Positions 1-61,342 of a stretch of DNA of 64,000 bases are shown here, piece by piece (within the stretch, counting starts at the first letter, position 1; every line of letters starts with the position of its first letter). The notes below the pieces were generated by a model that was not told where the DNA came from, did no database searches, and saw only the letters and a program-made list of their open reading frames with translations. The position numbers and the translations under genes were made by a program. Source of the stretch: Gemmatimonadaceae bacterium (GTDB lineage Bacteria; Latescibacterota; UBA2968; UBA8231); assembly GCA_026706075.1 (NCBI GenBank), contig JAPOZM010000043.1, positions 1-64,000 on the forward strand, in the 5' to 3' direction.

Positions 1-488
1 GGGTCGGAGATGCGCGAGCCCACAAGGCTGAAGCTCGACTTGCGGGAGGAGGCGTCGAAGCGGATGCCGTTGAGCCGGCTCAGGTTGAGGGTGAGGGAGG
101 AGAACCGCGTCGGCACGGCGTCGCCCACCATGATCGAGGCCGCCCAGCCCCGGTAGGAATCCATACCGATCATCAGGTTGCGGAAGATGCTCGGATAGAG
201 CGGGCTCTTGAAGATGCCGCTGCCCCGCTCCGGTCCCTGGGTTCGGGTCTCCTCGAGGGCGAAGACGGGGACTCCGTCGATCAGGTAGACACCGAAGGGA
301 TCGTAGACCCGCCGCTCCACGTCGCGCTCGTCGAAGTCGCGGTACCCGAAGCGGCCGATGTTCTCGTACGCCTCCTTCTCCCACAGGGGGTAGTCGTCTC
401 GGGACAGCATCTGGGCCTCGGCGGACCGGCAGAGCAGCAGGGGCGCTGCCACCGCGAGAGCGAACCCTGTGATGATTCCGACCTTCAC
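1..488 (-). CDS. Large barrel-like surface protein, N-terminal part (cut by window edge)
   Basis: Only the first 162 codons lie in the window. A GTG start at 488 follows a GAGGGG Shine-Dalgarno, and the protein opens with a signal peptide (hydrophobic core to about residue 24, then 'AEAQ'). The following text (YDPFGVYLIDG, then FRNLMIG.DSY...IMVGD, then LTLNLSRLNGIRFD) matches, in order, the N-termini of the three large proteins at 48651-56949, so this is a fourth member of that family. It sits 30 nt after the discoidin/FlgD-like gene, the same order as in the distant copy, and is probably co-transcribed with it. Function is unknown. The family context suggests an outer-membrane or surface location. 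Confidence 0.75.
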   Translation of the reverse strand, partial: MKVGIITGFALAVAAPLLLCRSAEAQMLSRDDYPLWEKEAYENIGRFGYRDFDERDVERRVYDPFGVYLIDGVPVFALEETRTQGPERGSGIFKSPLYPSIFRNLMIGMDSYRGWAASIMVGDAVPTRFSSLTLNLSRLNGIRFDASSRKSSFSLVGSRISD

Positions 489-518
489 GACCCCTCGGGA
501 CCTCCGCGGGAAAGCCTC

Positions 519-2666
519 TCAGTAGACCACATGGACCACACCGGAGCCGGCCTCGTCGCCGCCATCCAGGTTCGCGCGCACCGAGAACAGGTAAATCCCC
601 GGAGGCACCAGGTTGCCGGCGTCGTCCCTTCCGTCCCAGAAGCCGGGAGAGAAGGCCGACCCCGCCGCGCCCAGGCCGGGATGGAGATAGCGGCCCCCGA
701 TGAGCCGGGGCGTCTCCAGCCTCCGGACCCGGCGCCCTCTCAGATCGTACAGATCCACGTCCACCCGGCGGGGCTCGGTGACCTTGGCGAGGGCGAACTC
801 GATGACCGTGAAGTCGTTGATCCCGTCGCCGTTGGGCGAGAAGGCCGGGGGCTGCGCCCTGACCTGCAGCAGGTCTCCGACCACGACGTCGGTCACCACC
901 ACGGTCCAGGAGGCCCCGTCAGCGGTCTCCTCCAGCACGTTCAGGGGATTCTCCGAGCCTGGGCTGAAGAGGGAGGCGCGGAACTCGTGGGTGTCGGTGT
1001 AGAGGGCGCACCGCGCCGAGATGGCAAAGGAGATCTCGCTGCCGTCGGCGGATGTAAGGGGGGGGTCGAAGGCGACGTCCAGGTCCCGCACGTCGGTGGG
1101 GGTCACCCACAGGGTCCGCCCGCCCGCGTCCAGGCCTCCTTCGCCCGTGGGGAACTCAGGCACGGCGATCTCCTGCCCCAGGAGCTGGATCGAGTTCACG
1201 GCGGTGGGGAGGCTGGGAAGTCGCAGGCGGATCCGCTCGAGTGCATCCCCCTCCTCCAGGGCCATGCCGACGCTGACGAGGAAGTCCACGTCCTGCCCCA
1301 TGGGGGCCTCGTTGGGGACCACGGAGGCAGTGGCGCTCCGCGCCGCGATCCCCTCCGGGTCATACCCTATCTCGAGGCTGTCGAGGGCGGGGGTGAACTC
1401 GAGATCGTCGGTGCGCAGGTTCACGCGGTAGCGCAGGTAGCGGCGCGGCTCGGGAGAAGGGATGAGGGCCCCGGAGTCCTCGAACTCCTCGCTCCAGGCG
1501 CTCCAGCTCCCGTCCTGCGTGTCCGGGCTGTCGCCGGTGCTGAACTGCAGGCCGAGGGACGTGGCGGGAGGCACTTCCCCCCACCACCGGACACGGCCGA
1601 AGTTCTTCACCGCCTCCGGGTCTCCCAGGTCCAGGGGCGGGGAGACGTAGGCCCCGGCGGGGACGAAGTCGACCCCGTAGATCTGAACCTCCGCGACCTT
1701 GGCGGGGTCGGCCCCGACCTCGGCCTGGGTCACCTGGACGCGGACGTGGCGCGCCAGGACCGGATTGAAGCGGACCTCCGTGAAGAGATGGTTCTCGATG
1801 TCGTTGAGGCCCCCCATCTCGATCCAGCGGGACTGGTCCTCGCTGATCTGCACCGAGTATCCGAGGAGGGAGTTGCCCTCCCAGGTCTCGTTGCCCTCGG
1901 GGGGCTTGGTGATCACCCGGACCCGCTCGATCCGGGTCAGTTCCGGCAGGGCGATGTTGAGGACGCGATTCAGCGCTCCCAGTCCCTGGGGCAGGGACCA
2001 CACGGGGAGGCCGATGTTCCCGTCGGTCACGCCCACCTCGCTGGCGTTGGCCCCGAGGGCGATGTTCCGTCCCCGTTGATCGGCCAGGACGATGCGGCCC
2101 TCCGGCGAGCCGGCGAGATTCACCTCGTTCGGATAGCCGGCGACCGCCTCGGCCTCGGGGTGGAAGATCGCCTCGCTCACCCGCACCCGGTCGATCGACC
2201 CGGCGCCGACCCGGCTCCACGTGTCTTGCACGGCAGCCGTGGTCCAGCCCGTGCCGTCCTGCCTTTCCCCCGTCCAGTACCAGGGGGAGGTCTCGTCGGA
2301 GAAGGTGCTGCGGGCGACCAGGGGACCGCCCTGAAGGCTGAGGAGCAGGCCTGCCCCGCCTTCCCCGGGAAGGTTGGTCACCGCCAGGGCTATGTGGTTG
2401 TCGCCCTGCTGCACGGAGACGGGGACCGCCTCGGCGGTCAGCCAGTCGCCGTCCGCAGCGACCTCGGCGCCGTTGAGATAGAGGACGTACTCCCCCGCGG
2501 CGGTGATCCGCAGCAGGGCGTCCCTGGCCTCATCGGCGTCGAAGGTGTGGCGGTACCAGGTGGTCTGCTGCCAGTGGCCGACGCGGAGCGCGTCGCCCCC
2601 GGCCGGCCCGGCGAGGACGCCGAGAAGCAGCAGACCCGGCGCGAGCGAAGGAAGTCTTGTTCCCAA
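519..2666 (-). CDS. Secreted discoidin-like protein with FlgD/CHU_C-type C-terminal domain
   Basis: A 715-residue exported protein. The start chosen is TTG at 2666, preceded by AAGAAGG at 6 nt and followed directly by a signal peptide (SLAPGLLLLGVLAGPAGG). Longer in-frame starts exist, but they have no ribosome site and would put a Pro-rich stretch before the signal. Residues of about 25-120 look like a jelly-roll sugar-binding domain (YRHTF...YLNG...GDNHIALAV). About 195-335 resembles an F5/8 (discoidin) domain (ITKPPEGNETW, YSVQISEDQSRW, ARHVRVQV). The C-terminus carries 'FSPNGDGINDFTVIEF', then 'VDLYDLRGRRV' and 'WDGRDDAGNLVPPGIYLFSV', a FlgD-Ig/CHU_C-type tail. It is a clear paralogue of the gene at 56975, including the shared motif LFSPGSENPLNV. 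It lies behind a terminator and ahead of a barrel-like gene. Confidence 0.8.
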   Translation of the reverse strand: MGTRLPSLAPGLLLLGVLAGPAGGDALRVGHWQQTTWYRHTFDADEARDALLRITAAGEYVLYLNGAEVAADGDWLTAEAVPVSVQQGDNHIALAVTNLPGEGGAGLLLSLQGGPLVARSTFSDETSPWYWTGERQDGTGWTTAAVQDTWSRVGAGSIDRVRVSEAIFHPEAEAVAGYPNEVNLAGSPEGRIVLADQRGRNIALGANASEVGVTDGNIGLPVWSLPQGLGALNRVLNIALPELTRIERVRVITKPPEGNETWEGNSLLGYSVQISEDQSRWIEMGGLNDIENHLFTEVRFNPVLARHVRVQVTQAEVGADPAKVAEVQIYGVDFVPAGAYVSPPLDLGDPEAVKNFGRVRWWGEVPPATSLGLQFSTGDSPDTQDGSWSAWSEEFEDSGALIPSPEPRRYLRYRVNLRTDDLEFTPALDSLEIGYDPEGIAARSATASVVPNEAPMGQDVDFLVSVGMALEEGDALERIRLRLPSLPTAVNSIQLLGQEIAVPEFPTGEGGLDAGGRTLWVTPTDVRDLDVAFDPPLTSADGSEISFAISARCALYTDTHEFRASLFSPGSENPLNVLEETADGASWTVVVTDVVVGDLLQVRAQPPAFSPNGDGINDFTVIEFALAKVTEPRRVDVDLYDLRGRRVRRLETPRLIGGRYLHPGLGAAGSAFSPGFWDGRDDAGNLVPPGIYLFSVRANLDGGDEAGSGVVHVVY

Positions 2667-2797
2667 TGAGAGCCTTCTTCCCTTTTCTGGCGGAGGATTC
2701 CCTGTCGGCCCCGCGCCCTCACGGATCATGGGAAGTGCCGGCGAGCGGCCCTGCTGCGGGCCTTCGCGCCGAACCCCGGGGAGGCTTAAAACAGACA

Positions 2798-2829
2798 AGG
2801 TGAGCGACCCTCGAAGAGATCGCTCACCT
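2798..2829 (-). terminator. Intrinsic terminator after the PNPFNP-tailed gene
   Basis: A perfect 10-bp inverted repeat (2798-2807 with 2820-2829, 12-nt loop). On the minus strand it is followed by TGTCTGTTTT. It lies between the stop of the 2859 gene and the start of the 519 gene. The paralogous module has an even stronger terminator at the same place. Confidence 0.8.
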
Positions 2830-2858
2830 CGTCCATCTGCCGAAACTGCCGCTGGCCG

Positions 2859-4754
2859 CTACTTGAGCAGGGTCAGCTTCTTGGTGGCCTGGAAGGAGCC
2901 GGCCTGCAGGCTGTACAGGTAGACGCCGCTGGCCGCGCTCTCCCCGGACTCGTTCATCCCGTCCCAGACGCTCTCATACACGCCGGCCTCCACGAACCCC
3001 TCGTGCAGGGTCTTGACCAGCTGGCCCGACAGGCTGAAGACCTGCAGGCTCACGTGCTCCTCCCGGGGGAGGCTGAAGCGGATCGTCGACTCCGGGTTGA
3101 AGGGGTTGGGATAGGCGTCGGCCAGGGAATAGGACCCGGGCCTGCCGGCGCCCGCCACTTCCTCCACGGCCGTGTCGCTGTTGATCACAGCCGACTTGAG
3201 GTCGAAGGGGAAGTGGATCGCCTGACGCGCCGGGTATCCGGTGAAGTCGGGCACGTCCCAGGGATCGGAGCCGCCGCCGCGCCGCGAGCCGATGTCCCAG
3301 TAGAGGCCGTCGTAGGGACCGTCCTCCTCGATCGACTCGACCCACTGCGGCCAGTGGGCGGGAGCGTGGGTGGCGACCATGTGCAGGATCCCCGTGCCGT
3401 CCGGGCCGAGGATGTCGACCGTGCTGGTGGTGCTGCCCAGCAGCGGGATGTAGGCGAAGCCCCAGCCGTCCTTGCTGCCCGAGCCCGCCGTGTTCCAGGG
3501 CGTGTAGGCGAAGGAGCCGTAGTCGTAGTCACCCGTGTCGGGGTTGAAGCTGTCGGCAAAGCCGTCGCCGTTGTTGTTGATCCACTTCAACTCGCCGTCG
3601 AGGGTGATCTTGAGGTGCAGCGGGGCGGCGTAGCCGACCACGTAGACGCCGGTGCCGTCGACCCAGATGTCGTGGGGGCTGAAGGACTGGTTGCCGGCGC
3701 CCACGTCGACCACGTTCCACTCGGACAGGTCGAGGACGTCGACGACATTGCCGGTGGCGGGGTCCTGGATGCCCACGTTCGAGTGGGCGGGCTGATCTCC
3801 ACCCCGGTCGTAGATCGGGTAGTAGATGAGGCCGTCCCAGGAATCGATGCCCGTGGAGCCGACTTTGAGGTTGCCGTCGCTGAAGGGCTCGAACTTCAGG
3901 CGGCCGTCGCCCTGGTCGCCGAAGTTGGTGTCGAGGGTGACCTGGCCGTTGGCCGGGTCGACGTTGAACTTGATCGACCCGTAGACCTCGCCGTCCCAGG
4001 AGTCGCCGTAGAAGTCGCCGGGCAGCGAGCCGTACTGCTTGCCGTTGCCGCCGCCGGCCCACTCGACGGGCACGATGTCGTCTTCGTGCCTGACGGCGGC
4101 CACCATGTCCTCCACATCGATCGCCTGCCAGGCGCCCGGGGTCTCGATCCAGTTGGTGCCGACCTTGGTGATGAACAGGTGGCGCGGGCCTCCGTCCGTG
4201 AGCTTGGGTATGCTGCCGCCGGTGAGGATGAAGAGATCGCCGTTCTGATCGCGGGCCAGGCAGGACTCCGCCGTATGCCGGGCGTTGGTGTAGCCCACCA
4301 TGTTGATCGGCGCCTGGTCATCGAGGGCGATGATGAAGAAGCGGTAGCTGCCGGACGGATCGACACCGTTGCCGCCCATGTCATTGCCGTCCCAGGTGAT
4401 CGAGTGCGAGCCGGGCTCGAACCGCGATCCGGGGGAGACGTACAGGGCGTAATCGATCTCCTGGTAGGTGTGCCAGTTCAACTCGCCCTCGGTGGTGCGT
4501 CCGGGCAGGTCGGCGTCGGAGAGGTTGGTGTACACGGCCAGGTAGACCGTGGCCGCCGAGCCGCTGGTGGTGAAGGGGATGTCCACGGGGAAGCTGCTGA
4601 CGGTCATGTCCTCGACCTCGACCGTGAGCACCGTGGGCATGCGGCTCTCGGTGATCTCGTTCTCCTCGCCGCCGATGGCGCCCTGGGCGGCCGCCATGCC
4701 GGCGGTGAGCGCCACCAGGGCTCCGGCGACGAAGATGAATCGTGCGGCTCTCAT
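2859..4754 (-). CDS. Secreted protein with PNPFNP (FlgD-like / type IX-like) C-terminal sorting-type domain
   Basis: A 631-residue protein with a typical signal peptide (positively charged MRAAR, hydrophobic core, cleavage near AAAQG at about 25). The ATG at 4754 has GGGAG about 9 nt upstream. About residues 60-160 form a Big/FlgD-like module (ATVYLAVYT, HSITWDGNDMGGNG, YRFFIIALDD). The middle is rich in Gly/Asp/Trp, resembling a beta-propeller or YVTN-type surface protein (DLSEWNVVDVGAG, GVYVVGYA). The last 85 residues are a canonical tail: 'AYPNPFNPESTIRFSLP', 'LQVFSLSGQLVKTL', 'WDGMNESGESAASGVYLYSL', ending KKLTLLK. Such tails are used for surface sorting in FCB bacteria, though whether a type IX pathway exists here is not shown. 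Paralogue of the gene at 59226. First gene of the left module. Confidence 0.82.
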   Translation of the reverse strand: MRAARFIFVAGALVALTAGMAAAQGAIGGEENEITESRMPTVLTVEVEDMTVSSFPVDIPFTTSGSAATVYLAVYTNLSDADLPGRTTEGELNWHTYQEIDYALYVSPGSRFEPGSHSITWDGNDMGGNGVDPSGSYRFFIIALDDQAPINMVGYTNARHTAESCLARDQNGDLFILTGGSIPKLTDGGPRHLFITKVGTNWIETPGAWQAIDVEDMVAAVRHEDDIVPVEWAGGGNGKQYGSLPGDFYGDSWDGEVYGSIKFNVDPANGQVTLDTNFGDQGDGRLKFEPFSDGNLKVGSTGIDSWDGLIYYPIYDRGGDQPAHSNVGIQDPATGNVVDVLDLSEWNVVDVGAGNQSFSPHDIWVDGTGVYVVGYAAPLHLKITLDGELKWINNNGDGFADSFNPDTGDYDYGSFAYTPWNTAGSGSKDGWGFAYIPLLGSTTSTVDILGPDGTGILHMVATHAPAHWPQWVESIEEDGPYDGLYWDIGSRRGGGSDPWDVPDFTGYPARQAIHFPFDLKSAVINSDTAVEEVAGAGRPGSYSLADAYPNPFNPESTIRFSLPREEHVSLQVFSLSGQLVKTLHEGFVEAGVYESVWDGMNESGESAASGVYLYSLQAGSFQATKKLTLLK

Positions 4755-4857: not shown

Positions 4858-5137
4858 GCGTTATTTCAGAACTCCCTTGCCCAAGGACGAAAGCGACGCG
4901 CGCACCGGGTCGTGATCAGGGTTCTCTACTCGTAACTCATTCTCCGACTGGAGGTTTCGGATCGCCTGGCCGGTGTCGACATCGTCCCGGGACGCTCCAG
5001 CAGGACCCTCCGCTCTCTTTTTCGCAGACCACTCCTCCCGAGTCCGCCGAGGTTCATCACGGGTGAAGCGGTCCCGCCGAGGACAGCCTATCTTACCTCC
5101 GGCCGCCGTGACCGCGGACTTACGGGAGCGAATTCGC

Positions 5138-6358
5138 ATGAGAGACGACGCCGACCGCAGGATCGCCGGCAGGAGCCTTCAGGACCTGCGGGACCGCTAC
5201 CACCGCCAGCTCTTCGAGGAGTTTCTGCCCCTGTGGGACCGCCACGGGGTCGACCACGAGTTGGGTGGGTTCCTGTGCAGCAGGGACCTCGACGGCAACC
5301 TGCGGGACGACTCCAAGTACATGTGGTACCAGGGCCGCGGCCTGTGGACCTACTCCCATCTGTACAACCACTTCGGCGGCGAGGAGCACCTCGAGGTGGC
5401 GCGCAAGGCCCGGGACTTCCTCCTGCGCCACGGGCGCGACGAGGACGGCAACTGGGTGACGGGCCTGGACCGCGAAGGCAACGTCACCGGTCCCGCCGAG
5501 GCCCGGGGCTACACCGCCATGTTCGTGGCCGAGGGGTTGCAGGAATACGCCCGGGCCACCGGTGACCAGGAATCGATGGACCTGGCCGTCGACAGCCTCT
5601 GGCGAGCCATGGAGCGGTGGGACGATCCGGAGATCGACACGAAGCAGGGCTACATCCCCCTCTCCTACCCGGGGATGCGCACCCTGGGCAGCCACATGAT
5701 CGCCATCCTGATCCTGTCGCAGATCCTCAGCCAGCACTCCGACCCGAAGCTGGAGGCCCTGGCCGACCGTGTCCTCGACGGCATCATCAACCGCTTCTGG
5801 AACCCGGAGTACCAGCTCACCAACGAAGCCCTGAACCACGACTACGAACGCCCCGACGACGAGAACGAGGACTTCATCTACCTCGGCCACGCCATCGAGA
5901 CCCTGTGGATGGTGATGCCCGAGGCGATGCGGCGCCGCGACCGGGCGCTCTTCGACCTCGCCGCCGAGCGCTTCCGCCGGCACATGGAGGTCGCCTGGGA
6001 CGACGTCTACGACGGCTTCTTCCGGGCCGTGGAGATCCACGGCGGCTACACCTTCGACAAGGTGCTCTGGCTGCAGGAGGAGGTCCTCATCGGCAACGCC
6101 ATCCTCATGGAGCACACGACGCTGGATTGGCCGGAGCAGTGGTTCGCGCAGACTTACGAGTACGTGCAGGACCGGTTCTACCTGGGTCCCCACGGCTACC
6201 GGACCTTCACACGGGGCGGCGACCGCAAGGTGACCTTCACCTCCGGCACGTCCCGCGCGGACATCTACCACCACCCCCGGCACCTGATGCGCAACCTCCT
6301 CGCCTTCCGCCGGATGGCCGACAGAGGCGGCGAGGTCTCCGGCTTCTGGGCGCAATGA
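5138..6358 (+). CDS. AGE-family sugar epimerase/isomerase, cytoplasmic
   Basis: A 406-residue member of the N-acylglucosamine 2-epimerase superfamily (alpha6/alpha6 barrel enzymes that epimerise or isomerise aldoses at C2, including GlcNAc 2-epimerase, cellobiose 2-epimerase and mannose isomerase). Family landmarks are WYQGRGLW (63-70), the catalytic-His motif GHAIE (His251), the segment KVLWLQEEVL (308-317) and YHHPRH (His378) near the C-terminus. The ATG at 5138 has GGGAG about 9 nt upstream. No signal peptide is present, so it should act in the cytoplasm. It is followed 13 nt later by a DUF6785 membrane protein. A close paralogue with a Tat signal lies at 8390. The exact sugar cannot be read from sequence. 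Confidence 0.85.
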   Translation: MRDDADRRIAGRSLQDLRDRYHRQLFEEFLPLWDRHGVDHELGGFLCSRDLDGNLRDDSKYMWYQGRGLWTYSHLYNHFGGEEHLEVARKARDFLLRHGRDEDGNWVTGLDREGNVTGPAEARGYTAMFVAEGLQEYARATGDQESMDLAVDSLWRAMERWDDPEIDTKQGYIPLSYPGMRTLGSHMIAILILSQILSQHSDPKLEALADRVLDGIINRFWNPEYQLTNEALNHDYERPDDENEDFIYLGHAIETLWMVMPEAMRRRDRALFDLAAERFRRHMEVAWDDVYDGFFRAVEIHGGYTFDKVLWLQEEVLIGNAILMEHTTLDWPEQWFAQTYEYVQDRFYLGPHGYRTFTRGGDRKVTFTSGTSRADIYHHPRHLMRNLLAFRRMADRGGEVSGFWAQ

Positions 6359-6371
6359 GCCCCCGCCCCAG

Positions 6372-8342
6372 ATGACCCGACCGGCCCCGGCCGCGGCGGG
6401 AACGAAGTCCTCCGGCGTCACCCTCCGGGCTTTCCTCACCGGCCTGGTCTGCTCGGCCCTTGTGGCCGGAGGGACCCAGTACGGCGAGATCTTCCTGCGC
6501 AGCTCCCGCATGTCCGACGACTTCAGCACCGGGGGCGCCCTGTTCGTGTTCTTCTTCCTGGTGGCCGGCGTCAACGTGGTCCTCAAGCTCCTCGGCCCGA
6601 GGGTTGCCTTCCGTCCCGCGGAGCTGATCCTCGTCTACGTGATGATGATGACCTCGTGCGCGGTCACGGGGATGGGGCTGACCCACTACCAGATCCCGCT
6701 GATGGCCACCCTCCCCTACTTCGCCACCCCGGAGAACGACTGGGCCAACCTGGTGGCACCCTTCGTCCGCGGCTGGATGGTGGTCGAGGATCCCCTGGCC
6801 GCCAAGTACTTCTTCGAGGGCCTGCCGGAGGGCGCATCCATTCCCTGGGGCCTGTGGCTGCGGCCCCTCGCCTTCTGGAGCGTGTTCTTCGCCGCCTTCT
6901 ACTTCGCCATGGTGGCCCTCATGGTGATCCTGCGGAAGCAGTGGATCGAGAACGAGAGGCTCATCTACCCGATCATCCGGGCTCCCCTGGACATGATCGG
7001 CGAACAACGCGGCGGCCTGCTCTCGAACTTTTTCAAGAACCCCCTCATGTGGCTCGGCTTCGCCGTCGCGTCGATCGTCACCTCCTCCATCGGCCTCCAC
7101 GAGTACTACGACTTCATCCCCTCCCTCAACGTGCTCTATCCGGGCATCACCCTGCCCATGCTCCGGGACGCGATCCAGCTGCGCTTCATGATCAGCTTCC
7201 CGGTCCTCGGCTTCGCCTACCTGATCAACCAGGACGTGGCCTTCGGCCTCTGGTTCCTCGACGTCCTCGCCAAGGTCCTGAACGGGGTCTTCAACACGGT
7301 GGGGGTCTACCTGCGGCTTCGCGTCAACCACTACGGCGGCAGCTCGGGGATCTTCTCCTCCACCGCCATCGGCGCCATGGTGACCCTCGTCCTCTACGGA
7401 GCCTGGGTCGCCCGGGGCCACCTGAAGGACGTGGTGCGCAAGGCTTTCACCCGCGCCCCCGACGTGGACGACTCCGGCGAGATCCTCTCCTACCGCAACG
7501 CCGTCCTCGGCCTGCTGGTCTCGGCGGCGGTCATGCTCCTGTGGCTGAGCGCCGCCGGGCTGCCGGTGTGGGCGGGGGTGCTGTTCCTCTTCATCGCCTT
7601 CGTCATCTTCATCGCCATCACCCGAATCGTCGTCGAGGGCGGCATGGCGGCCTGCCGGGCGCCCCTCATCGCCCCGAACTTCATGCTCTACGCCGTCGGC
7701 ACCCCCTCCCTCGGAGCCCAGGGGGTGACGGCCCTGGGCTACACCTACGGCTGGTCCTCGGACATCCGCACCTTCCTCATGGCGTCCATCGCCAACGGCC
7801 TGAAGCTCCTCGACGACACGCGCTTCCGCGGCAGCAAGCGCCTCGTCTTCGGCTGCGTCTTCGCCTCCCTGGCGGTCTCCCTCGTCGTCTCCTTCGGGCT
7901 CATGCTCCACCTCGCCTACGACGTGGGGGGGGTCAACATCCACTCCTGGTTCTGCCTGGGGGCGAACCTGCTGCCCTTCAACCTGGTCTCCACGGTGGTC
8001 AGCCGGCCGATCGACCTGACCTGGGGGATGTGGATGAACATGGGCTTCGGGGCCTCGGCCATGGGGCTGCTCACCTTCCTCCGCTACAAGTACCTGTGGT
8101 GGCCCCTCCATCCGCTGGGGCTGACGGTGGCCGGCAGCCGGGTCATGGACTGGACGTGGTTCAGCATCTTCCTGGCCTGGCTGGTGAAGATCGGCGTCCT
8201 GCACTACGGCGGGCCGAGGATGTTCCGCGCCCTGCGGCCCTTCTTCCTCGGCCTCGTGCTCGGTCAGTTCGTCTCGGTCGGCGCGTGGACGCTGATCGAC
8301 GCCTTCACCGGCATGACCGACAACATGATCTTCGTGATCTGA
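6372..8342 (+). CDS. DUF6785/DUF6784-type polytopic membrane protein (OPT-like, putative transporter)
   Basis: 656 residues with at least a dozen hydrophobic spans from residue 20 to the end (for example FLTGLVCSALVAGG, LFVFFFLVAGVNVVLKLL, AVMLLWLSAAGLPVWAG, GVLFLFIAFVIFIAI). The overall plan, with the EGGMAACRAP segment at about 420 and a Trp-rich C-terminal half, matches the DUF6785 family found in Planctomycetota and FCB candidate phyla, which is distantly related to oligopeptide (OPT) transporters. It lies 13 nt after the AGE gene, so the pair is likely co-transcribed and may import the sugar or glycopeptide that the epimerase uses; that link is inference. The N-terminal 15 residues are cytoplasmic-looking. 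No clear ribosome site is visible before this ATG. Confidence 0.7.
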   Translation: MTRPAPAAAGTKSSGVTLRAFLTGLVCSALVAGGTQYGEIFLRSSRMSDDFSTGGALFVFFFLVAGVNVVLKLLGPRVAFRPAELILVYVMMMTSCAVTGMGLTHYQIPLMATLPYFATPENDWANLVAPFVRGWMVVEDPLAAKYFFEGLPEGASIPWGLWLRPLAFWSVFFAAFYFAMVALMVILRKQWIENERLIYPIIRAPLDMIGEQRGGLLSNFFKNPLMWLGFAVASIVTSSIGLHEYYDFIPSLNVLYPGITLPMLRDAIQLRFMISFPVLGFAYLINQDVAFGLWFLDVLAKVLNGVFNTVGVYLRLRVNHYGGSSGIFSSTAIGAMVTLVLYGAWVARGHLKDVVRKAFTRAPDVDDSGEILSYRNAVLGLLVSAAVMLLWLSAAGLPVWAGVLFLFIAFVIFIAITRIVVEGGMAACRAPLIAPNFMLYAVGTPSLGAQGVTALGYTYGWSSDIRTFLMASIANGLKLLDDTRFRGSKRLVFGCVFASLAVSLVVSFGLMLHLAYDVGGVNIHSWFCLGANLLPFNLVSTVVSRPIDLTWGMWMNMGFGASAMGLLTFLRYKYLWWPLHPLGLTVAGSRVMDWTWFSIFLAWLVKIGVLHYGGPRMFRALRPFFLGLVLGQFVSVGAWTLIDAFTGMTDNMIFVI

Positions 8343-8389: not shown

Positions 8390-9733
8390 CTACTGCCAGA
8401 CGTCGCTCACGCCGCCTCCCCGCGCGATCATGCGGTCGAGGGCGAGGAGGTTGAGCATCAGGTGCCGGGGGTGGTGGTAGTTGCCCTTGCGCGAGGTGCG
8501 GGGCCGGAAGGTGACCTTGCGGTCCCCTCCCATGATCCACATGGGATAGCCGTGGGGCTTCAGCGGGTACTTCTCCTGAACGTAGCGGAAGGTGCGGCCG
8601 AACCACCGCTCGGGCCATTCGAGGTCGGTGTGCTCGAGGAGGATCATCATGCCGATGAGGACCTCCTCCTGGAGCCACAGGACCTTGTCGAAGGTGAACG
8701 ATCCGTGGACTTCCATGGCGCGGAAGAAGCCGCCGTAGACATCGTCCCAGGCGACCTCCATGTGCCGCTTCATGCGCTCGGCGGCGAGGTCGAAGAGGGC
8801 CCGGTCGCCGCGGCGCAGCGCCTCGTGGAGGATCATCCAGAAGGTCTCGATGGCGTGGCCGAGGTAGATGTAGTCCTCGTTGTCGTCGTCGGGGCGCTCG
8901 TAGTCGTGGTTCAGGGCCTCGTTGTTGAGGCGGTACTCGGGGTTCCAGAACCGCTCCATGACGACCTTCACCGCATGGGCCAGGCGCGCCTCCAGCTTCG
9001 GGTCCTCGCGTTTCTGCAGCAGCTGGGTCAGCAGCACGATGGTGACCATCTCGAAGCCCTGGATGCGCATCCCGGGATAGCTCACGGGCAGGTATCCCTG
9101 CCCCACGTCCCGTTCGGGATCGTCATAGAGCCTCGCCCCCTTCCAGAAGCTCTCGATGGCCAGCTCCATCGACTCCTCGTCGCCCGCGGCCCTGGCATAC
9201 TCCTGGAGCCCCTCGGCGATGAAGAGGGCGGTATAGCCCATGCGGTCGGCGGCGCCGATCTGGCCGCCCTCGCGGTCGAGGGTCCGGACCCAGTGGCCCT
9301 CCCCGTCCATGCCGTGCCGCAGGATGAAGTCCCGGGTCTTGCGCGCCATCTCGAGGTGGATCTCGCCGCCGAAGTGGTTGTAGGCGAAGGCGTGGGTCCA
9401 CATCCCCCGGCCCTGGTACCACATGTGCTTGTCGGTGTTCACCTGGGTGCCGTCGTGGTCGACGGCGCACATGAAGCCGCCGAGCTCGAAGTCGAAGCCG
9501 GTCCGCTCCCAGAAGGGCAGGTAGTCGTCGAAGAGGTCGCTGCGGTACTGCTCGCGGAGGGCCTCGAGGCTCATGCCGGCGATCTGCGAGCGCATGCCCG
9601 CCGTGGACGGCCTCACGCCCGGCTGCGCGGAGGCCCCGGCGTGGCTGGAGGCGGCGGCCTCCACCCCCAGGACCGGGGAGAGATCGGCCACGGGCGCGAG
9701 GATCAGGCCCTTGAGGAGGTCGCGTCGCTTCAT
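8390..9733 (-). CDS. AGE-family epimerase/isomerase with Tat signal peptide
   Basis: A 447-residue paralogue of the protein at 5138, very similar along its whole length (WYQGRGMW, ALNHDYERPDD, YLGHAIETFW, KVLWLQEEVLIG, YHHPRHLM). It keeps both signature His motifs (GHAIE and YHHPR). It differs by an N-terminal extension, MKRRDLLKG plus a hydrophobic stretch ending near VEAAAS, which is a textbook twin-arginine signal. The ATG at 9733 is chosen because GGAG lies 9 nt upstream; the ATG at 9742 directly abuts it. Predicted to be folded in the cytoplasm and exported to the periplasm, which is unusual for this mostly cytoplasmic family. It follows a Tat-type M28 peptidase gene by about 96 nt. Confidence 0.85.
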   Translation of the reverse strand: MKRRDLLKGLILAPVADLSPVLGVEAAASSHAGASAQPGVRPSTAGMRSQIAGMSLEALREQYRSDLFDDYLPFWERTGFDFELGGFMCAVDHDGTQVNTDKHMWYQGRGMWTHAFAYNHFGGEIHLEMARKTRDFILRHGMDGEGHWVRTLDREGGQIGAADRMGYTALFIAEGLQEYARAAGDEESMELAIESFWKGARLYDDPERDVGQGYLPVSYPGMRIQGFEMVTIVLLTQLLQKREDPKLEARLAHAVKVVMERFWNPEYRLNNEALNHDYERPDDDNEDYIYLGHAIETFWMILHEALRRGDRALFDLAAERMKRHMEVAWDDVYGGFFRAMEVHGSFTFDKVLWLQEEVLIGMMILLEHTDLEWPERWFGRTFRYVQEKYPLKPHGYPMWIMGGDRKVTFRPRTSRKGNYHHPRHLMLNLLALDRMIARGGGVSDVWQ

Positions 9734-9829
9734 GGCGGCCATCTCCGTGATGCAGGAAGGGTTGCCGGGAGCATGTTACGGCGTTGGAGGCCCCCTTTCA
9801 ACGGCCTCCGGGGGTCAGGACCGGCCCGG

Positions 9830-30436: not shown

Positions 30437-31114
30437 ATGGAGTTGCTCACCCAACTCTGGGGATCGATGGCAATCACCGGCAAGGTGGTTGTCCTGGTCC
30501 TGTTCGCCCTGTCCATCTACTCCTACGCAGTCATGGTGGACCGTTTCCTGGCCTTGCGCACGGACCGGCAGCGCTCGGGTGCCTTCGTCGAGGAGATCGA
30601 GGGCGAGAGCGATGCCGGCCACATCCTCGGCGCCGCCCGAGAGGCGGTTGCGGAGGGCCGGTGCTCCCTCGGCTCGGTGGTTGCGGCCGGCCTTGACGAG
30701 TACGGGTCCCTGCGCGCCGACGACCAACCCGGAGCCGTAGTCGTCGAAGGCGTGGACGAGGCCGTCAGCCGCGAACTCGACGTGGCGGTCATCAACCTGC
30801 GCGTGCGGCTCAGCGGCATGGCCACCATCTCGGGCGTGGCGCCCTTCCTGGGCCTCTTCGGCACGGTCACCGGTCTCATCGCCGCCTTCCGCGGCATCGC
30901 CGAGACCGGCTCGGGAGGACTGGCCACGGTCTCCGGCGGGATCTCCGAGGCCCTGGTGACCACGGTGATCGGCCTCTTCGTCGCCATTCCGGCCTTGTGG
31001 GCCTACAACTTCTTCATGAACAGAATCGACGTGATAGCCGTGGAACTGGACAATGCCGCGACGCGGGTGGTAAACCGCGCGGTCCGTCACGCCTTGCGAG
31101 CCAGCGCCGCCTAG
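30437..31114 (+). CDS. exbB: ExbB/TolQ/MotA-family proton-channel protein
   Basis: 225 residues. Three membrane helices lie at about 13-33, 127-150 and 168-192, with the large cytoplasmic domain between the first two, as in ExbB/TolQ. Helix 2 has the family motif PFLGLFGTVTGLIAAF; helix 3 has GGISEALVTTVIGLFVAIPAL, with Glu171 at the position of the conserved E. coli ExbB Glu176. ExbB pentamers with an ExbD dimer use the proton motive force to energise a TonB-like partner across the periplasm. Preceded by a good promoter and a near-perfect ribosome site; followed by two exbD genes. Confidence 0.92.
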   Translation: MELLTQLWGSMAITGKVVVLVLFALSIYSYAVMVDRFLALRTDRQRSGAFVEEIEGESDAGHILGAAREAVAEGRCSLGSVVAAGLDEYGSLRADDQPGAVVVEGVDEAVSRELDVAVINLRVRLSGMATISGVAPFLGLFGTVTGLIAAFRGIAETGSGGLATVSGGISEALVTTVIGLFVAIPALWAYNFFMNRIDVIAVELDNAATRVVNRAVRHALRASAA

Positions 31115-31142
31115 CCAGCACGGCCCACCGGTCCAACCTGGA

Positions 31143-31577
31143 ATGCCACGCAGGAAGCGTCAGTTGCGAACGGCTGCCGGGCAGCGGGAGCGAACGAGTC
31201 CCATGCCCGACATCACCCCCGTGGTGAACGTGGCCCTGGTGTTGCTGATCATCTTCATGATCGTCATGCCCATCATCCGCGAGGGGGTCGAGGTCGACAC
31301 ACCCCGGGCCGACCACGCCGACCGGATGGAGGAGGCCGCCGAGCAGTTGGTCGTGTTGTCGGTCAAGGAGGATGGGAGTCTGTTCGTCAACCTGACCGAG
31401 GTGGACAAGACCCGCCTCAAGGATGAGCTGGCCCTCGCCTACCAGGGCCAGGAGGGCAGCCCGATCATCATCAAGGGCTCCCGGAATCTGCCGTACAACG
31501 AGATCCTCGAACTGATGGAGGTGTGCCAGGGCATCGGCGCGCCCGCCGTCGACCTGCTGGCCAGGAAGGAACGCTAG
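31143..31577 (+). CDS. exbD: ExbD/TolR-family protein, Asp-to-Asn variant in the membrane helix
   Basis: 144 residues: a basic cytoplasmic N-terminus (MPRRKRQLR), one membrane helix (about 25-43) and a periplasmic domain ending ILELMEVCQGIGAPAVDLL. The helix reads ITPVVNVALVLLIIFM. In E. coli ExbD the same place is TPFIDVMLVLLIIFM, where the Asp (Asp25) is essential for proton transfer. Here it is Asn29. The subunit would therefore be unable to protonate at that point and probably works as the passive half of a heterodimer with the next gene. It starts 28 nt after exbB and ends immediately before exbD2. Confidence 0.85.
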   Translation: MPRRKRQLRTAAGQRERTSPMPDITPVVNVALVLLIIFMIVMPIIREGVEVDTPRADHADRMEEAAEQLVVLSVKEDGSLFVNLTEVDKTRLKDELALAYQGQEGSPIIIKGSRNLPYNEILELMEVCQGIGAPAVDLLARKER

Positions 31578-31976
31578 ATGCCCCGCCGGCGCAGGGCCCT
31601 CGGCCGCCTCGAGTCCAACATCAACATCACCCCCATGGGCGATGTTTCCCTCTGTCTGCTCCTGGGTTTCCTCGTCATCACGCCGATCCTCATCGAGACC
31701 CTGGAGGCCAACCTCCCCCAGGCCGGGGCGGTCTCCTCGGGGCAGTTGAAGCCCGATCCCGTCGTCGTCCTCACCGCGGACGGCAGGATCCTGGTCGACG
31801 ACGAGGAGGTGGCCTTCGAGGCCCTCGCCGTCAAGATGGAGGAGCTGTTCCCGAAGGGAGTGCTGACCGAGCGCAAGGTGATGTTCAGCGGCTCGGGCGA
31901 GGTCCCCTACCAGGACGTGATCCGGTTGCTCGACAGGCTCCGCGGACTCGGCGTCGAGACCTTCGGTATCCGCTAG
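31578..31976 (+). CDS. exbD: ExbD/TolR-family protein retaining the essential Asp
   Basis: 132 residues. The helix NINITPMGDVSLCLLLGFLVITP keeps the proton-relay Asp (Asp22) in the motif TP..DV. The periplasmic domain follows the ExbD fold (VVVLTADGRILVDDEEV, then VPYQDVIRLLDRLRGLGVETFGI). The ATG directly abuts the stop of the first exbD gene. The helix ends differently from exbD1 (GFLVITPILIE), so the two subunits are not recent copies. Confidence 0.88.
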   Translation: MPRRRRALGRLESNINITPMGDVSLCLLLGFLVITPILIETLEANLPQAGAVSSGQLKPDPVVVLTADGRILVDDEEVAFEALAVKMEELFPKGVLTERKVMFSGSGEVPYQDVIRLLDRLRGLGVETFGIR

Positions 31977-32058: not shown

Positions 32059-34233
32059 ATGAAACCGACCTGCATCGCGGCGGCCGTGATCCTGGCATCG
32101 GTGCCGCCCCTCGCCGCCGATCCCCCCGACCGCCTCGCCGAGGCCCTGTCCGCCGTCGCCTTCGAGCGCTCCGACCTCGGCTGCCGCCCGAAGACCTGGT
32201 GGTCCCGCTTCGGCCACTTCGCCGGGACCCGGCGGATCCCCTTCTTCTTCCCCGACCTCTTCGCCGAGCCCCTGCGCACCTACGAGTCGAGCCGGGTGAT
32301 GGCGGGCGCCATGGAGCGCTATCTGTCGTCCTCCTACCGGGCCGCCAACGAGGACGGCGCCTTCAAGTCCGCCTACTTCCTCGGCTTCACCCACCTGTCT
32401 CCGGCGCACCGCGGCTACCGCGCCGGGGTCGTCGACCTTCCCCCGGACCTGGCCGATCCCCTGGCGGCCGCCATGGAGGAGCTCCACCGCGCCGGCGGGG
32501 GGACGGCCGGCGCCGACCTGCTGGCCCGGGTACGGGCCGAGGCGGCCACCCTGCCCGGGACGCTGCATCGCCCCATGGCCCTGTTCCTCTGGCGCCTGGC
32601 CGGTGCCCACCGCTGGGCGGAGGAGGCCTTCGAGGCGGTTCCGGCGGCCGACCAGACCTGGATCGCCGCCGAGCAGGCCGCCCACCAGATCGAGTACGCC
32701 CCGGCCCTGCGGCGGGCCTCGGCGGAGGCCGACCTGGTGCTGCTGACCAATGCGGCCCAGCAGGTCCTGCAGGCGGCCGAGTCGGCGCACAGGCAGCTCT
32801 CGGCGGCCGTGGACAGCGCCGGTCCCGTGGACGCCAGCATCCTCTGGCCGACGCCCCTGGGCCGGGTGCTGATCGCCGGCACCGGCGCGGACGAGCATCG
32901 ATGCGGGGACTGCCTAGCGGTGATCGACCTCGGTGGCGGCGACACCTACGGCGCCGGCGCCGGCGCCGGACCGGACCAGCGCATCGCCGTGATCCTCGAC
33001 CTCTCCGGGGACGACACCTACCGGGGCGGAGGCCCGGGCGAGCCCGTGCAGGGCGCCGGGGTCTTCGGCGCAGGCCTGCTCTGGGACGGCGGCGGCAACG
33101 ACAGCTACGAGGCCGAGGGCATCGCCCAGGGCAGCGGCTTCTTCGGCGCCGGCATCCTCTGGGACGAGGGGGAGGGCGCCGACGCCTACCGGGCCCGGTT
33201 CTCGGCCCAGGGAGCCGGGTATTTCGGATTGGGCCTGCTGGTCGACGGCGGCGGCGACGACACCTACTACCTGTGGGGGGACGGCCAGGGCTTCGGCGGT
33301 CCCGGCGGCGGCATCGGCGTCCTCGGCGACGCCGGAGGCGACGACACCTACACCGCGGAGGTCGACGCCCGCATCACGGGGCGGGGTTCCTACCACACGG
33401 CCAACCGCGTCACCAGCTCCCACGCCCAGGGCGCCGCCATCGGCCGGCGCGCCGATCTCGAGGAGGGCTACTCCTGGGCGGGAGGCCTGGGGGCGCTCGT
33501 CGACCTGTCCGGGGACGACGTCCGGCGCGCCGGCAACTGGGCCCTCGGGTCGGGGTACTGGTTCGGCACGGGGCTGGTCTACGACGGCGGCGGGGACGAT
33601 CTCTACGAGGCGGTCTACTACTCGATGGCCTCGGGGGCCCACTTCTGCATCGGGGCGATCTTCGACGAGGGGGACGGCGACGACCGCTACCGCCTCGTCG
33701 ACCCGCCCCTCGAGCCGCGGAGCGAGACGATGAACGCCTCGGCGGGGGCCGGCCTCGCCTTCGGCTGGGACTACACCATGGGACTCCTCGTCGACAAGGG
33801 CGGCGACGACTGGTACGAGGCGCGGATCATCTCCGGGGCCCAGGCGATGATCCGCTCCACCGCCATCCTCGCCGACCTCGGCAGCGGCAGCGACACCTAC
33901 GTGCTGCCCGAGGGCGCCGGCGGGGGCCACGGAGCCTTCCGCGACAGCTACGCCAGGGACCGCCATCCCCACGAGATCGGCTACGGCCCCTACAGCCACC
34001 ACGGCACCAACTTCGGCTTCCTCCTCGACACCGGGGGCGAGGACCGCTACCTGAACTACTCCGACACGGGAGAGCACCCGCCGTCGGCGGTCTGGAAGGA
34101 CGGGTCCACCTGGCTGCAGCCGGCGCCCGGGTCCGAGGAATACGGCTTCGACTCCTTCGGGGTGGGCATGGACGTCGAGGGCGGCACGATCCCCGAGTTC
34201 ACCGTCTTCGCACCCATGGGAGAGAGGGAATGA
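32059..34233 (+). CDS. Secreted GDDxY-repeat protein, copy 1
   Basis: 724 residues with a short signal peptide (MKPTCIAAAVILASVPPLAA). Residues 20-280 are a helical N-terminal domain (LAEALSAVAFERSDLG, WWSRFGHF). From about 285 to 690 runs a tandem repeat with period about 26-29: G(D/N)D.Y, a short variable stretch, AQG.G.FG.G.L.D. I count at least nine units, for example LSGDDTYRG, GGGNDSYEAEG, GGGDDTYYLWGDGQG. The pattern differs from RTX (GGxGxDxUx), but the Asp pairs suggest metal binding and the even period suggests a solenoid or beta-helix. Ends with GMDVEGGTI. Translationally coupled to copy 2 (ATGA). Function unknown; located after the exb genes. Confidence 0.72.
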   Translation: MKPTCIAAAVILASVPPLAADPPDRLAEALSAVAFERSDLGCRPKTWWSRFGHFAGTRRIPFFFPDLFAEPLRTYESSRVMAGAMERYLSSSYRAANEDGAFKSAYFLGFTHLSPAHRGYRAGVVDLPPDLADPLAAAMEELHRAGGGTAGADLLARVRAEAATLPGTLHRPMALFLWRLAGAHRWAEEAFEAVPAADQTWIAAEQAAHQIEYAPALRRASAEADLVLLTNAAQQVLQAAESAHRQLSAAVDSAGPVDASILWPTPLGRVLIAGTGADEHRCGDCLAVIDLGGGDTYGAGAGAGPDQRIAVILDLSGDDTYRGGGPGEPVQGAGVFGAGLLWDGGGNDSYEAEGIAQGSGFFGAGILWDEGEGADAYRARFSAQGAGYFGLGLLVDGGGDDTYYLWGDGQGFGGPGGGIGVLGDAGGDDTYTAEVDARITGRGSYHTANRVTSSHAQGAAIGRRADLEEGYSWAGGLGALVDLSGDDVRRAGNWALGSGYWFGTGLVYDGGGDDLYEAVYYSMASGAHFCIGAIFDEGDGDDRYRLVDPPLEPRSETMNASAGAGLAFGWDYTMGLLVDKGGDDWYEARIISGAQAMIRSTAILADLGSGSDTYVLPEGAGGGHGAFRDSYARDRHPHEIGYGPYSHHGTNFGFLLDTGGEDRYLNYSDTGEHPPSAVWKDGSTWLQPAPGSEEYGFDSFGVGMDVEGGTIPEFTVFAPMGERE

Positions 34234-42893: not shown

Positions 42894-44198
42894 CTACTCG
42901 GGCCGCACGTCCTGGAACTCGAAGTAGACCCTCGCCGTCACCCGCGCCGAAGTGGGCCCCCGGACCGGAACCGGGGCCATGTCGGAGTCGGACGGCTCCT
43001 CCGTCCCGGCCGCCACCGGGGCCACGCCGGTAGAAGGCGGCAGCCGCCAGGACCGCACCCGCTCCTCGACGCAGCGGCTCACCTCGTCGCTGACCACGGT
43101 GGCTTCCAGGATCTGGGCCGACTCCACCATGCCGCTGGCGAGGACGACGAACTGGGCCGTCACCTTCCCCTCCGAGGCCTTGCCTTCCATGAAGGGGCCT
43201 TCGAAGCAGTCGTTCACCTGCTCCAGCCGGGTGCGGGCGAAGGCGTCGATGGCGGTCACGTCGCGGGTGATGTCTCCCGTGGCGTTGCCCACGACCTGGC
43301 TGGCCGCCGCCAGACGGGCCTCGGAGAACTCCCACTCCTCGGCGCGCTCGAACTCGAGAACCTGCTGCTCCACGGTCCGGCGGAAGGCGAAGGCGACGTC
43401 CGTCGTCTCCAGGGGCTTGCCGAAGGCGTTGAACTTCAGGACGAAGTCCTCCAGGTGCAGACGCACGTCGGTCACCTCGTCCTCCAGGGGATCGAAGACG
43501 AGGAACCCCGAGTACTGCTCGCCCTTGAAGATCTCCTCGTCCACGGCATAGTTGTTCGTGCGCACCAGGCCCATGCGCATGTTGAACCGGTAGTCCTCGT
43601 TGCCGCTGGGTCCCTTCAGGGCGCGGTAGTAGGACTCGAAGTTGCGGGAGGCAGAGCCGGCCAGCACCCCGTAGGCCCCGAGGACCTCGCCCGGGCGGTT
43701 CGTCGTCAGCTGCGACCGCAGGGGCTGCAGGGCCACCTTGGCGAGGTCCTGATTGGTGACCGTGATCCGGAACACGGTAAAGCGGGTCCGAACGTAGCCC
43801 AGGGCCGGGTCGACGTAATCTCCGTAGGTATAGGGGTTGATCGAGTACTGCCCCTGGTTGGACTCGTTCGGGAACATGCCGTTGAGCTCGTGGTCGGTCA
43901 TGTGCTCGACGGCGATCCTCAACCCTTCCATCTCGTAGGTGACCAGTCCGCCCTCGCCGACGGTGATGACCTGCTCGGCCTGCTCCCCCGGCAGGAGGGA
44001 GACCACCCGGTCGTAGCGCTCGGGGTAGATCGCCTCGCGCAGAAAGCTGCAGTGGACGGTGAGCAGGGATGACGCCAGGGCGAGGCCAAAGGCCGCCCGC
44101 CCAGGCCGATGGCCTCGGCGCCTCGCCCGTCGGTGCTGATTGCCTTTGCCCATGCGGTTCATTCCTTGTCTGTCCGGGCCAATGGGATCCGGCCTCAT
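42894..44198 (-). CDS. Exported protein with AgmX/PglI (TonB-like) C-terminal domain
   Basis: 434 residues from an ATG that overlaps the DUF4159 stop (ATGA); a start at 44162 (MNRMGKG) is also possible. A basic N-terminus and hydrophobic run end in LLTVHC (Cys50), perhaps a poor lipobox. The middle is an unknown mixed domain. About 325-391 has the AgmX/PglI/TonB-type pattern: a first Cys (NDCF), GKVTAQFVVLASGMVESAQIL, a second Cys in SRCVEERVRSWRLPPS. In myxobacterial gliding and related systems such domains sit in proteins working with ExbB/ExbD-like motors and TPR proteins. Last gene of the large operon. No TonB-like Pro-rich linker is seen. Confidence 0.7.
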   Translation of the reverse strand: MRPDPIGPDRQGMNRMGKGNQHRRARRRGHRPGRAAFGLALASSLLTVHCSFLREAIYPERYDRVVSLLPGEQAEQVITVGEGGLVTYEMEGLRIAVEHMTDHELNGMFPNESNQGQYSINPYTYGDYVDPALGYVRTRFTVFRITVTNQDLAKVALQPLRSQLTTNRPGEVLGAYGVLAGSASRNFESYYRALKGPSGNEDYRFNMRMGLVRTNNYAVDEEIFKGEQYSGFLVFDPLEDEVTDVRLHLEDFVLKFNAFGKPLETTDVAFAFRRTVEQQVLEFERAEEWEFSEARLAAASQVVGNATGDITRDVTAIDAFARTRLEQVNDCFEGPFMEGKASEGKVTAQFVVLASGMVESAQILEATVVSDEVSRCVEERVRSWRLPPSTGVAPVAAGTEEPSDSDMAPVPVRGPTSARVTARVYFEFQDVRPE

Positions 44199-51512: not shown

Positions 51513-51517
51513 CGCCC

Positions 51518-56949: not shown

Positions 56950-56974
56950 GCCGATCATCCTGGGTCGCCGGCGG

Positions 56975-59071: not shown

Positions 59072-59151
59072 GTCCCCCTCCCCCCTGATGATCTGCGAAG
59101 CAGCGGGATCGTCCTTCACGCACTCGACCCCGGAGTCGTCCGGGGAAGCAA

Positions 59152-61124: not shown

Positions 61125-61342
61125 ATGCCATTTCCTCCTGCTGGGGGAGTGGATGCCCGAGTGTAGCTTGGACGGGGGGGAAAGGTGTGGCTCTCGAAGG
61201 CCGGCTGTCTTCGGATCCAGGCGGTCCCCGGAGTCTGGATGAGCGACTCTTTGAGCCTGTCTATTCATCTGTTACGACCCCGGTGCCCGGGGCCTGAATC
61301 CTCTCGCGGGACTCTGCGGGCCCGTCAAGGGGCCATCGGTAT

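Follow-up and report, generated by a model that had tools for sequence, protein, structure and literature searches.

Genes of the two module copies

The window analysed here, that is, the whole stretch of 64,000 nucleotides (G000:C71:1-64000), encodes near each end, and always on the minus strand, a PNPFNP-tailed secreted protein, a discoidin/type-B-CTD protein (hereinafter, disc) and a large barrel protein. The left copy (module 1) runs into the contig end and is represented by three genes:

3-488, minus strand: barrel A of module 1, first 162 aa; the contig end cuts the gene, and the remainder lies on contig C77 (L066:10402-12639)
519-2798, minus strand: disc of module 1, homologous to 56975-59119; start codon uncertain (2666 or 2798); F5_F8_type_C 27.6 bits and CHU_C 23.6 bits, both slightly below the cut-offs
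2859-4754, minus strand: PNPFNP-tailed secreted protein of module 1 (type I), 631 aa, homologous to 59226-61268; FlgD_ig 59.8 bits; Por_Secre_tail 25.3 bits (cut-off 27)

The minus-strand end of contig C71 shares an exact 55-base overlap with an end of C77. Exact 55-base overlaps also link C53 with C100, C59 with C64, and C74 with C93, and this uniform length is suggestive of joins in the assembly graph. After the join, the left barrel A on C77 is followed by barrels B and C, a DUF5683 protein, a small protein, a DUF4159 protein, ExbB, ExbD and a second ExbD. Module 1 is adjoined by two genes of the GlcNAc-2-epimerase family (5108-6358 and 8390-9742), which flank a DUF6785 transporter-like gene (6372-8342).

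The right copy (module 2) is more extensive, and motor genes that probably belong to it are encoded on the opposite strand:

59226-61268, minus strand: PNPFNP-tailed secreted protein of module 2 (type II), likely start ~61124; FlgD_ig 54.4 bits; TIGR04183 T9SS type A tail 22.5 bits (cut-off 23)
56975-59119, minus strand: discoidin/type-B-CTD protein (disc) of module 2; F5_F8_type_C 37.5 bits; CHU_C 26.5 bits (cut-off 27)
54250-57015, minus strand: barrel A of module 2, likely start 56889; membrane beta-barrel in the AF2 model
51518-54250, minus strand: barrel B of module 2, by alignment; falls in the barrel B clade
48651-51521, minus strand: barrel C of module 2, by alignment; falls in the barrel C clade
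45391-48642, minus strand: TPR protein, 1083 aa, with an N-terminal hydrophobic segment; TPR_6 and others, YbgF/BamD/PorW-like TPR matches
44195-45394, minus strand: DUF4159 protein, candidate force transducer; PF13709 110 bits, AF2 model, Foldseek, SxxxH (SVALH)
42894-44162, minus strand: lipoprotein-like protein with a conserved N-terminal domain (family alignment) and a fused AgmX/PglI (TonB-like) C-terminal domain; NF033768 51.3 bits (cut-off 40)
30437-31114, plus strand: ExbB (MotA/TolQ/ExbB); PF01618 104 bits; relatives lie directly upstream of type II modules L082, L083 and L092
31143-31577, plus strand: ExbD1, TM Asp replaced by Asn; PF02472 75.9 bits; DITPVVNVALVLL
31578-31976, plus strand: ExbD2, TM Asp kept; PF02472 68.6 bits; NITPMGDVSLCLL

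A preliminary description of the window claimed that three gene pairs at its two ends are homologous and share order and strand. This claim holds: pairwise protein alignment gives 31% identity over 687 columns for the PNPFNP pair (2859-4754 and 59226-61268; E 2e-67), 37% over 695 columns for the disc pair (519-2798 and 56975-59119; E 1e-124) and 40% over the 136 aa available for barrel A (3-488 and 54250-57015; E 8e-27). The six proteins are genuine ORFs where they had been placed, and every motif that had been quoted was found (ATVYLAVYT; FSPNGDGIND; YDPFG.YL.DG with the LNGIR.D block). The extent and number of the copies required correction. Each copy is longer than three genes, with two further tandem barrels after barrel A; the left copy is not whole within the window, where its barrel is reduced to 162 aa because base 1 is the contig end; and the genome harbors at least four modules, not two.

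Modules in the genome and their types

The 5.6-Mb genome has four loci with a full-length PNPFNP protein, and its full-length disc proteins map to exactly these four: module 1 (C71 left and C77), module 2 (C71 right), module 3 (C10) and module 4 (C53 and C100). The genome is a draft with an estimated contamination of 9%; modules 1 and 2 share one contig. Module 3 consists of the same eight genes as module 2 in the same order. The fuller unit includes PNPFNP, disc, barrels A, B and C, the 1083-aa TPR protein, the DUF4159 protein and the lipoprotein, with ExbB-ExbD-ExbD nearby. Neither a TPR nor a lipoprotein gene is present in type I modules (see below).

A distant class of barrel and disc genes is located on C85, C92, C105, C74, C9, C119, C59+C64 and C10:118-129 kb. 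Most of the distant barrels (L064, L068-L075) have one to three disc-like neighbors that carry the same tail, and these loci are often near SurA/parvulin chaperone-like and TPR proteins.

In the barrel tree (150 sequences, FastTree), A, B and C form separate clades, and the same module types recur inside each of these as well as in the PNPFNP and disc trees, although not every locus is represented in every tree. Type I unites module 1 with L093, L095, L096, L110 and L115; type II unites modules 2 and 3 with L082, L083 and L092; type III unites module 4 with L097-L100, L118 and L120; types IV and V are also resolved. A single genome (RKRN01) supplies types I, II, III and IV (L110, L092, L100 and L117, respectively). 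The left PNPFNP protein of the window is 79% identical to a type I protein of another genome, compared with ~31% to its counterpart in the window. Given these identities and the recurrence of the types, the types must have split before these species did, with the modules staying together. A sister relation of the two window copies was considered and is not supported by the trees (five proteins; no AU test).

Upstream of type I modules, we observed another DUF4159 protein, short and beginning like a lipoprotein (L093:1097-1939, L115:1058-1891). DUF6785 transporters were considered as module partners; three of the four modules (1, 3 and 4) have one within ~6 kb, but there are 26 such genes in the genome, and the association is no more than suggestive. 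DUF6785 genes also adjoin the type I locus L093 and the type III locus L118.

Conservation of the gene set across phyla

A scan of 84,980 species genomes with the barrel returned 255 relatives and 71 loci, from Latescibacterota, Gemmatimonadota-labelled genomes, Zixibacteria, KSB1, Ignavibacteria/Bacteroidota, Kryptonia and Neomarinimicrobia. A core of the module recurs in Ignavibacteria, Kryptonia, Zixibacteria, KSB1 and Marinimicrobia, usually with the addition of a PorV-like gene; the typical operon outside Latescibacterota consists of disc, PorV-like, one barrel, TPR, (ExbB, ExbD,) DUF4159 and lipoprotein genes. Among the 18 single-barrel loci (at least 20 kb long, all found via the barrel), disc and the lipoprotein are present in every one, TPR and DUF4159 in 17 each, the PorV-like gene in 14 and ExbB/ExbD in 10. 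Because these loci had been found through the barrel, searches seeded with the other proteins were added. Of 26 disc matches scoring above 650 bits, 22 lie no more than 1.5 kb from a barrel, and PNPFNP matches of at least 400 bits adjoin disc in 14 of 17.

The copy number differs sharply between lineages. One barrel gene each was found in the 12 genomes tested behind the Ignavibacteria, Kryptonia, Zixibacteria, KSB1 and Marinimicrobia loci, whereas Latescibacterota carry many barrels per genome, up to 93 barrel match segments (G076). Within the phylum of the window, the barrel is found in 39 of 64 genomes, including all 25 of the same family, and in none of the 22 genomes from three sister families of the same class (f2-f4). 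Its absence from the sister families, yet presence in other classes of the phylum, might result from either loss or lateral transfer.

These results bear on the remaining claims of the preliminary description. An old duplication retained as a unit is supported: the PNPFNP, disc and barrel A, B and C trees all give the same module types. The possibilities that would have undone this reading are not borne out, given that all three pairs are significantly similar and that the disc- and PNPFNP-seeded searches find the families together, not mostly apart, in other genomes. That the three proteins function together is supported as well and remains an inference from gene order; the gene set itself is well supported by sequence, and its function is inferred. 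What had been missed is that the two window copies are not each other's nearest relatives, being types I and II that both occur in other species; that a motor and a candidate force transducer are encoded in the neighborhood; and that the ancestral set was not made up of the three named genes, as PNPFNP and barrels B and C were encountered only in Latescibacterota-type loci. For the claim that no system with this set has been described, we can only add that no published description was found in the open-access literature.

Barrels, secreted proteins and type IX secretion

The AF2 model of barrel A is a membrane beta-barrel (pLDDT 77.9, pTM 0.77) with, by our own count, roughly 22-26 long strands and an inserted beta domain at ~220-345. 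An acidic loop at ~481-600 holds many invariant residues (D483, N484, D485, D486, D488, D540, D578, N582, D586, D591, D595) and, judging from the model, might bind calcium; the N-terminal segment is conserved and poorly modelled. Neither a Pfam nor an NCBIfam family was detected on barrels A, B and C, and no Pfam family on the Kryptonia barrel. Identity with TonB-dependent receptors or SusC was rejected, as there was no match to the plug or to a receptor barrel family, and no SusD-like lipoprotein was found among the module genes scanned. Homology with SprA was likewise rejected (hhalign probability of 0.2% against the SprA of the same genome), and a PDB sequence match of the barrel profile to saporin (18 bits, E 0.004, short stretch) was taken as chance. 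Foldseek with the barrel model recovered only generic outer-membrane barrels, with TM-scores of ~0.2.

The genome encodes SprA, the translocon of the type IX secretion system (T9SS) (~2126 aa; G000:C92:43240-44511, L081:1435-7815), and therefore a T9SS is probably present. More than 100 places on many contigs match the PNPFNP/FlgD-type tail, so that the organism most likely exports a very large set of tailed proteins. FlgD_ig is above the cut-off on the window PNPFNP proteins, and CHU_C is above the cut-off in the disc of L114; the window proteins fall just under the CHU_C, Por_Secre_tail and TIGR04183 cut-offs. The disc protein also carries sugar-binding-type (galactose-binding/discoidin-type) domains. 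The PorV-like genes are supported by PorV_fam matches of 84 bits (cut-off 90) in L101 and 54 bits in L114 and L135; in the modules of the window, no PorV-like gene was detected.

These features raise the possibility of an accessory or alternative secretion or assembly apparatus, parallel to T9SS, in which the motor, TPR protein and barrel export or install the neighboring secreted proteins. The PorV-like gene in the core, the TPR protein with its PorW/SprE-type matches, the T9SS-type tails on disc and PNPFNP, and the SurA-like proteins noticed by eye beside several distant barrel loci all fit this explanation. Against it, the barrels are unlike SprA, SprA is already encoded in the genome, and the abundance of the PNPFNP/FlgD-type tail elsewhere indicates that the tail itself needs no module. 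We consider such an apparatus unlikely.

The motor and the candidate force transducer

ExbB-ExbD-ExbD in the window sits 11 kb from the remainder of module 2. Because its closest relatives are the motors directly upstream of the type II modules L082, L083 and L092, it is probably part of module 2 despite this gap. Such motors also adjoin modules of type I (C77, L093, L105, L115), type II (L082, L083, L092) and type IV, and 5 of the 7 ExbB genes of the genome lie within 15 kb of a DUF4159 gene. Directly after the window motor (32086-36485) are two proteins of 715 and 743 aa without a Pfam match, relatives of which were not found near other modules.

In nearly every motor examined, the TM Asp is kept in at least one ExbD; in type II, ExbD1 has Asn in its place and ExbD2 keeps the Asp. 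An ExbD with this Asn was seen at 31143-31577 of the window and in L082, L083, L092 and L149, each time paired with an Asp-keeping ExbD.

The DUF4159 proteins have one N-terminal helix, which by our own count carries a His at a TonB-like position (as SxxxH or AxxxH) in 32 of the 44 sequences; those of types I and IV lack this His, though motors adjoin their loci. The AF2 model shows a helix at 2-34 with high confidence, disorder at 78-159 and an alpha/beta domain, for which the best Foldseek match is Hoch_4089 (4i66; E 1.9e-12), followed by weaker matches to ThuA-like and flavodoxin folds. The DUF4159 protein is thus predicted to be built like TonB, with a TM helix carrying SxxxH, a disordered linker and a globular domain. 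The combination of TM helix, linker and domain with a motor-binding His has been used as a criterion for new transducers (PMC12204202).

On a skeptical view, the genes form no joint machine; they would be a conserved locus for the outer-membrane surface, and the nearby Ton motor would be a general-purpose one whose receptors are unrelated. Indeed, the motor is undetected near 8 of the 18 full single-barrel loci and is 11 kb off in module 2, and an ExbBD motor need not be adjacent to the many receptors it can serve. Against this view, the DUF4159 and TPR genes are in the neighborhood of 17 of the 18 single-barrel loci, the motor subtype tracks the module type (ExbD1 and ExbD2 of the window best match type II loci), and the barrels are not TonB-dependent receptors. 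This explanation appears the least plausible of those discussed here.

A putative energised machine across the envelope

We propose that the module encodes a trans-envelope machine, driven by the proton-motive force, which would act on the large barrels of the outer membrane and on a surface protein of T9SS type and most likely functions in substrate capture and uptake; we regard this reading as about as likely as not to be correct. In this view, ExbB-ExbD would be the inner-membrane motor. The DUF4159 protein would be the force transducer, with its TM helix docked on the motor, its disordered linker spanning the periplasm and a globular end; the large TPR protein and the lipoprotein would link this transducer to one or three large outer-membrane beta-barrels. 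Disc and, in Latescibacterota, the PNPFNP protein would be exported by T9SS and remain on the outside, where either the barrels or the PorV-like protein would hold them. Such a machine would most likely capture large substrates, probably containing carbohydrate, and use energy to take them up, similarly to SusCD-TonB but with unrelated outer parts; in Latescibacterota, whole modules were copied and diversified, a pattern known from substrate-specific transporters. Homology, gene order, module types, motor genes, the TM-linker-domain architecture and the barrel fold come from sequence or from model prediction, whereas the joint complex, the direction of force and the substrate are inferred only, without any experiment.

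In favor of the machine reading are the gene neighborhood kept across phyla, the motors beside modules of types I, II and IV, the TonB-like helix and three-part build of the DUF4159 protein, the TM Asp retained in the motors, the barrel fold, the excess of barrels over motors, the sugar-binding-type domains of disc, the presence of SprA, and the anchoring of type B CTD proteins by PorP-like barrels in Bacteroidetes. Several findings speak against it. The barrels have no TonB-dependent-receptor family match, and their fold matches are generic; DUF4159 proteins of types I and IV lack the His; the motor of module 2 is 11 kb away, and a motor is near only 10 of the 18 single-barrel loci; type I modules have neither the TPR protein nor the lipoprotein; and the CTD matches in the window are just below the curated cut-offs.

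The main competing function is movement. In a gliding or surface-movement machine, the ExbBD-DUF4159 motor would move the disc adhesin on barrel or PorV-like carriers, similarly to Agl-Glt of Myxococcus or SprB/SprF of Flavobacterium. In favor of this possibility, many loci combine a single ExbB with two ExbD, the composition of AglR-AglQ-AglS; the set includes a large TPR protein; the window lipoprotein has an AgmX/PglI C-terminal domain with a gliding_GltG match (E 3e-9); disc resembles SprB in having a type B CTD and adjoins a PorV-like gene; the set is single-copy in Ignavibacteria-type genomes; and a comparable core set has been described (PMC3169522). However, the AgmX/PglI match is confined to the fused C-terminal domain of the window lipoprotein and has not been shown to be general, the GltG match is far under the cut-off (36 vs 650 bits), and the dozens of barrel copies in Latescibacterota are hard to square with a motility apparatus. 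A gliding role accordingly remains possible without being favored.

Between these roles, the evidence divides. Substrate-specific uptake is favored because there are many barrels per few motors and because whole modules were duplicated and diverged; the genome of the window contains tens of barrel matches compared with 7 ExbB and 9 DUF4159 genes, and many barrels to few motors is the usual ratio for TonB-dependent transporters. A motility or adhesin-type role is favored by the type B tail, by the AgmX/PglI domain and by the fact that the Ignavibacteria-type genomes tested carry the core only once, which suits a core function better than nutrient uptake. On balance, our inference gives most weight to an energised complex of some kind, with uptake in a moderate lead.

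A bolder formulation, which could as readily prove wrong as right, is that the FCB superphylum has a proton-driven outer-membrane machine that has so far gone undescribed. Its transducers would form a separate class, with DUF4159 replacing the TonB end, and its barrels of ~900-1000 residues a separate family; the machine would be encoded by a single core copy in Ignavibacteria, Kryptonia, Zixibacteria, KSB1 and Marinimicrobia and by whole-module paralogues in Latescibacterota. Few transducers are known that couple the proton gradient to the outer membrane, namely, TonB, TolA, GltG, GldM and a proposed vWA class. If correct, the proposal would extend this short list by a machine whose transducer ends differently, whose barrels are a new family and whose surface proteins are of T9SS type. 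The gene set is conserved across several mostly uncultured, poorly studied phyla, and the barrels, otherwise unannotated, are present in dozens of copies per Latescibacterota genome, so that knowing their role would explain much of the cell surface. In the open-access literature searched (preprints and subscription papers were outside the search), we found neither DUF4159 nor Latescibacteria together with type IX secretion.

Comparison with known systems

The vWA force transducers (PMC12204202) differ from the module in their globular end, which is vWA instead of DUF4159, and in that the operon of the module includes outer-membrane barrels and type B CTD proteins; a search of the text of that article found neither 'DUF' nor 'AgmX'.

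With the Agl-Glt system of Myxococcus (PMC3169522), the module has in common one TolQ-like and two TolR-like subunits (30437-31976; C77), an AgmX/TonB-like protein and an envelope-spanning set with outer-membrane components. In contrast, the transducer, barrels and surface protein of the module belong to other families as far as tested, and there is no evidence of motility.

In Bacteroidetes, type B CTD proteins are held by PorP-like barrels (PMC9143113). The module resembles T9SS and this mode of anchoring in its candidate CHU_C/type B and PNPFNP/type A tails, in the PorV-like barrel adjoining disc in the core operon, in the TPR protein with PorW/SprE-like matches and in the proton-driven motor. 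It differs in that the barrel is not SprA and the motor is ExbBD, and in that disc lies within a conserved operon in phyla outside Bacteroidia; no PorV-like gene was detected in the modules of the window. Parts are shared with both T9SS and Agl-Glt, and the defining features of these systems either failed or are unsettled.

A further likeness is to TonB-ExbB-ExbD with SusC/SusD or other TonB-dependent transporters. Shared are the ExbB/ExbD motor with the conserved TM Asp (in the window, in ExbD2 only); a transducer with a TM helix carrying SxxxH, a linker and a globular end (not in types I and IV); large outer-membrane barrels; a surface protein with sugar-binding-type domains; and many barrels per few motors. 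Unlike TonB, the transducer of the module ends in a ThuA/flavodoxin-like DUF4159 domain, not in the TonB CTD, and the TonB-like AgmX/PglI domain sits on a separate protein, the lipoprotein. Furthermore, the barrels match no TonB-dependent receptor or SusC family, no SusD was found among the module genes scanned, and the module includes a TPR protein and T9SS-type tails. We infer that the module works like TonB-ExbBD but fails membership in that system on the transducer end and the receptors.
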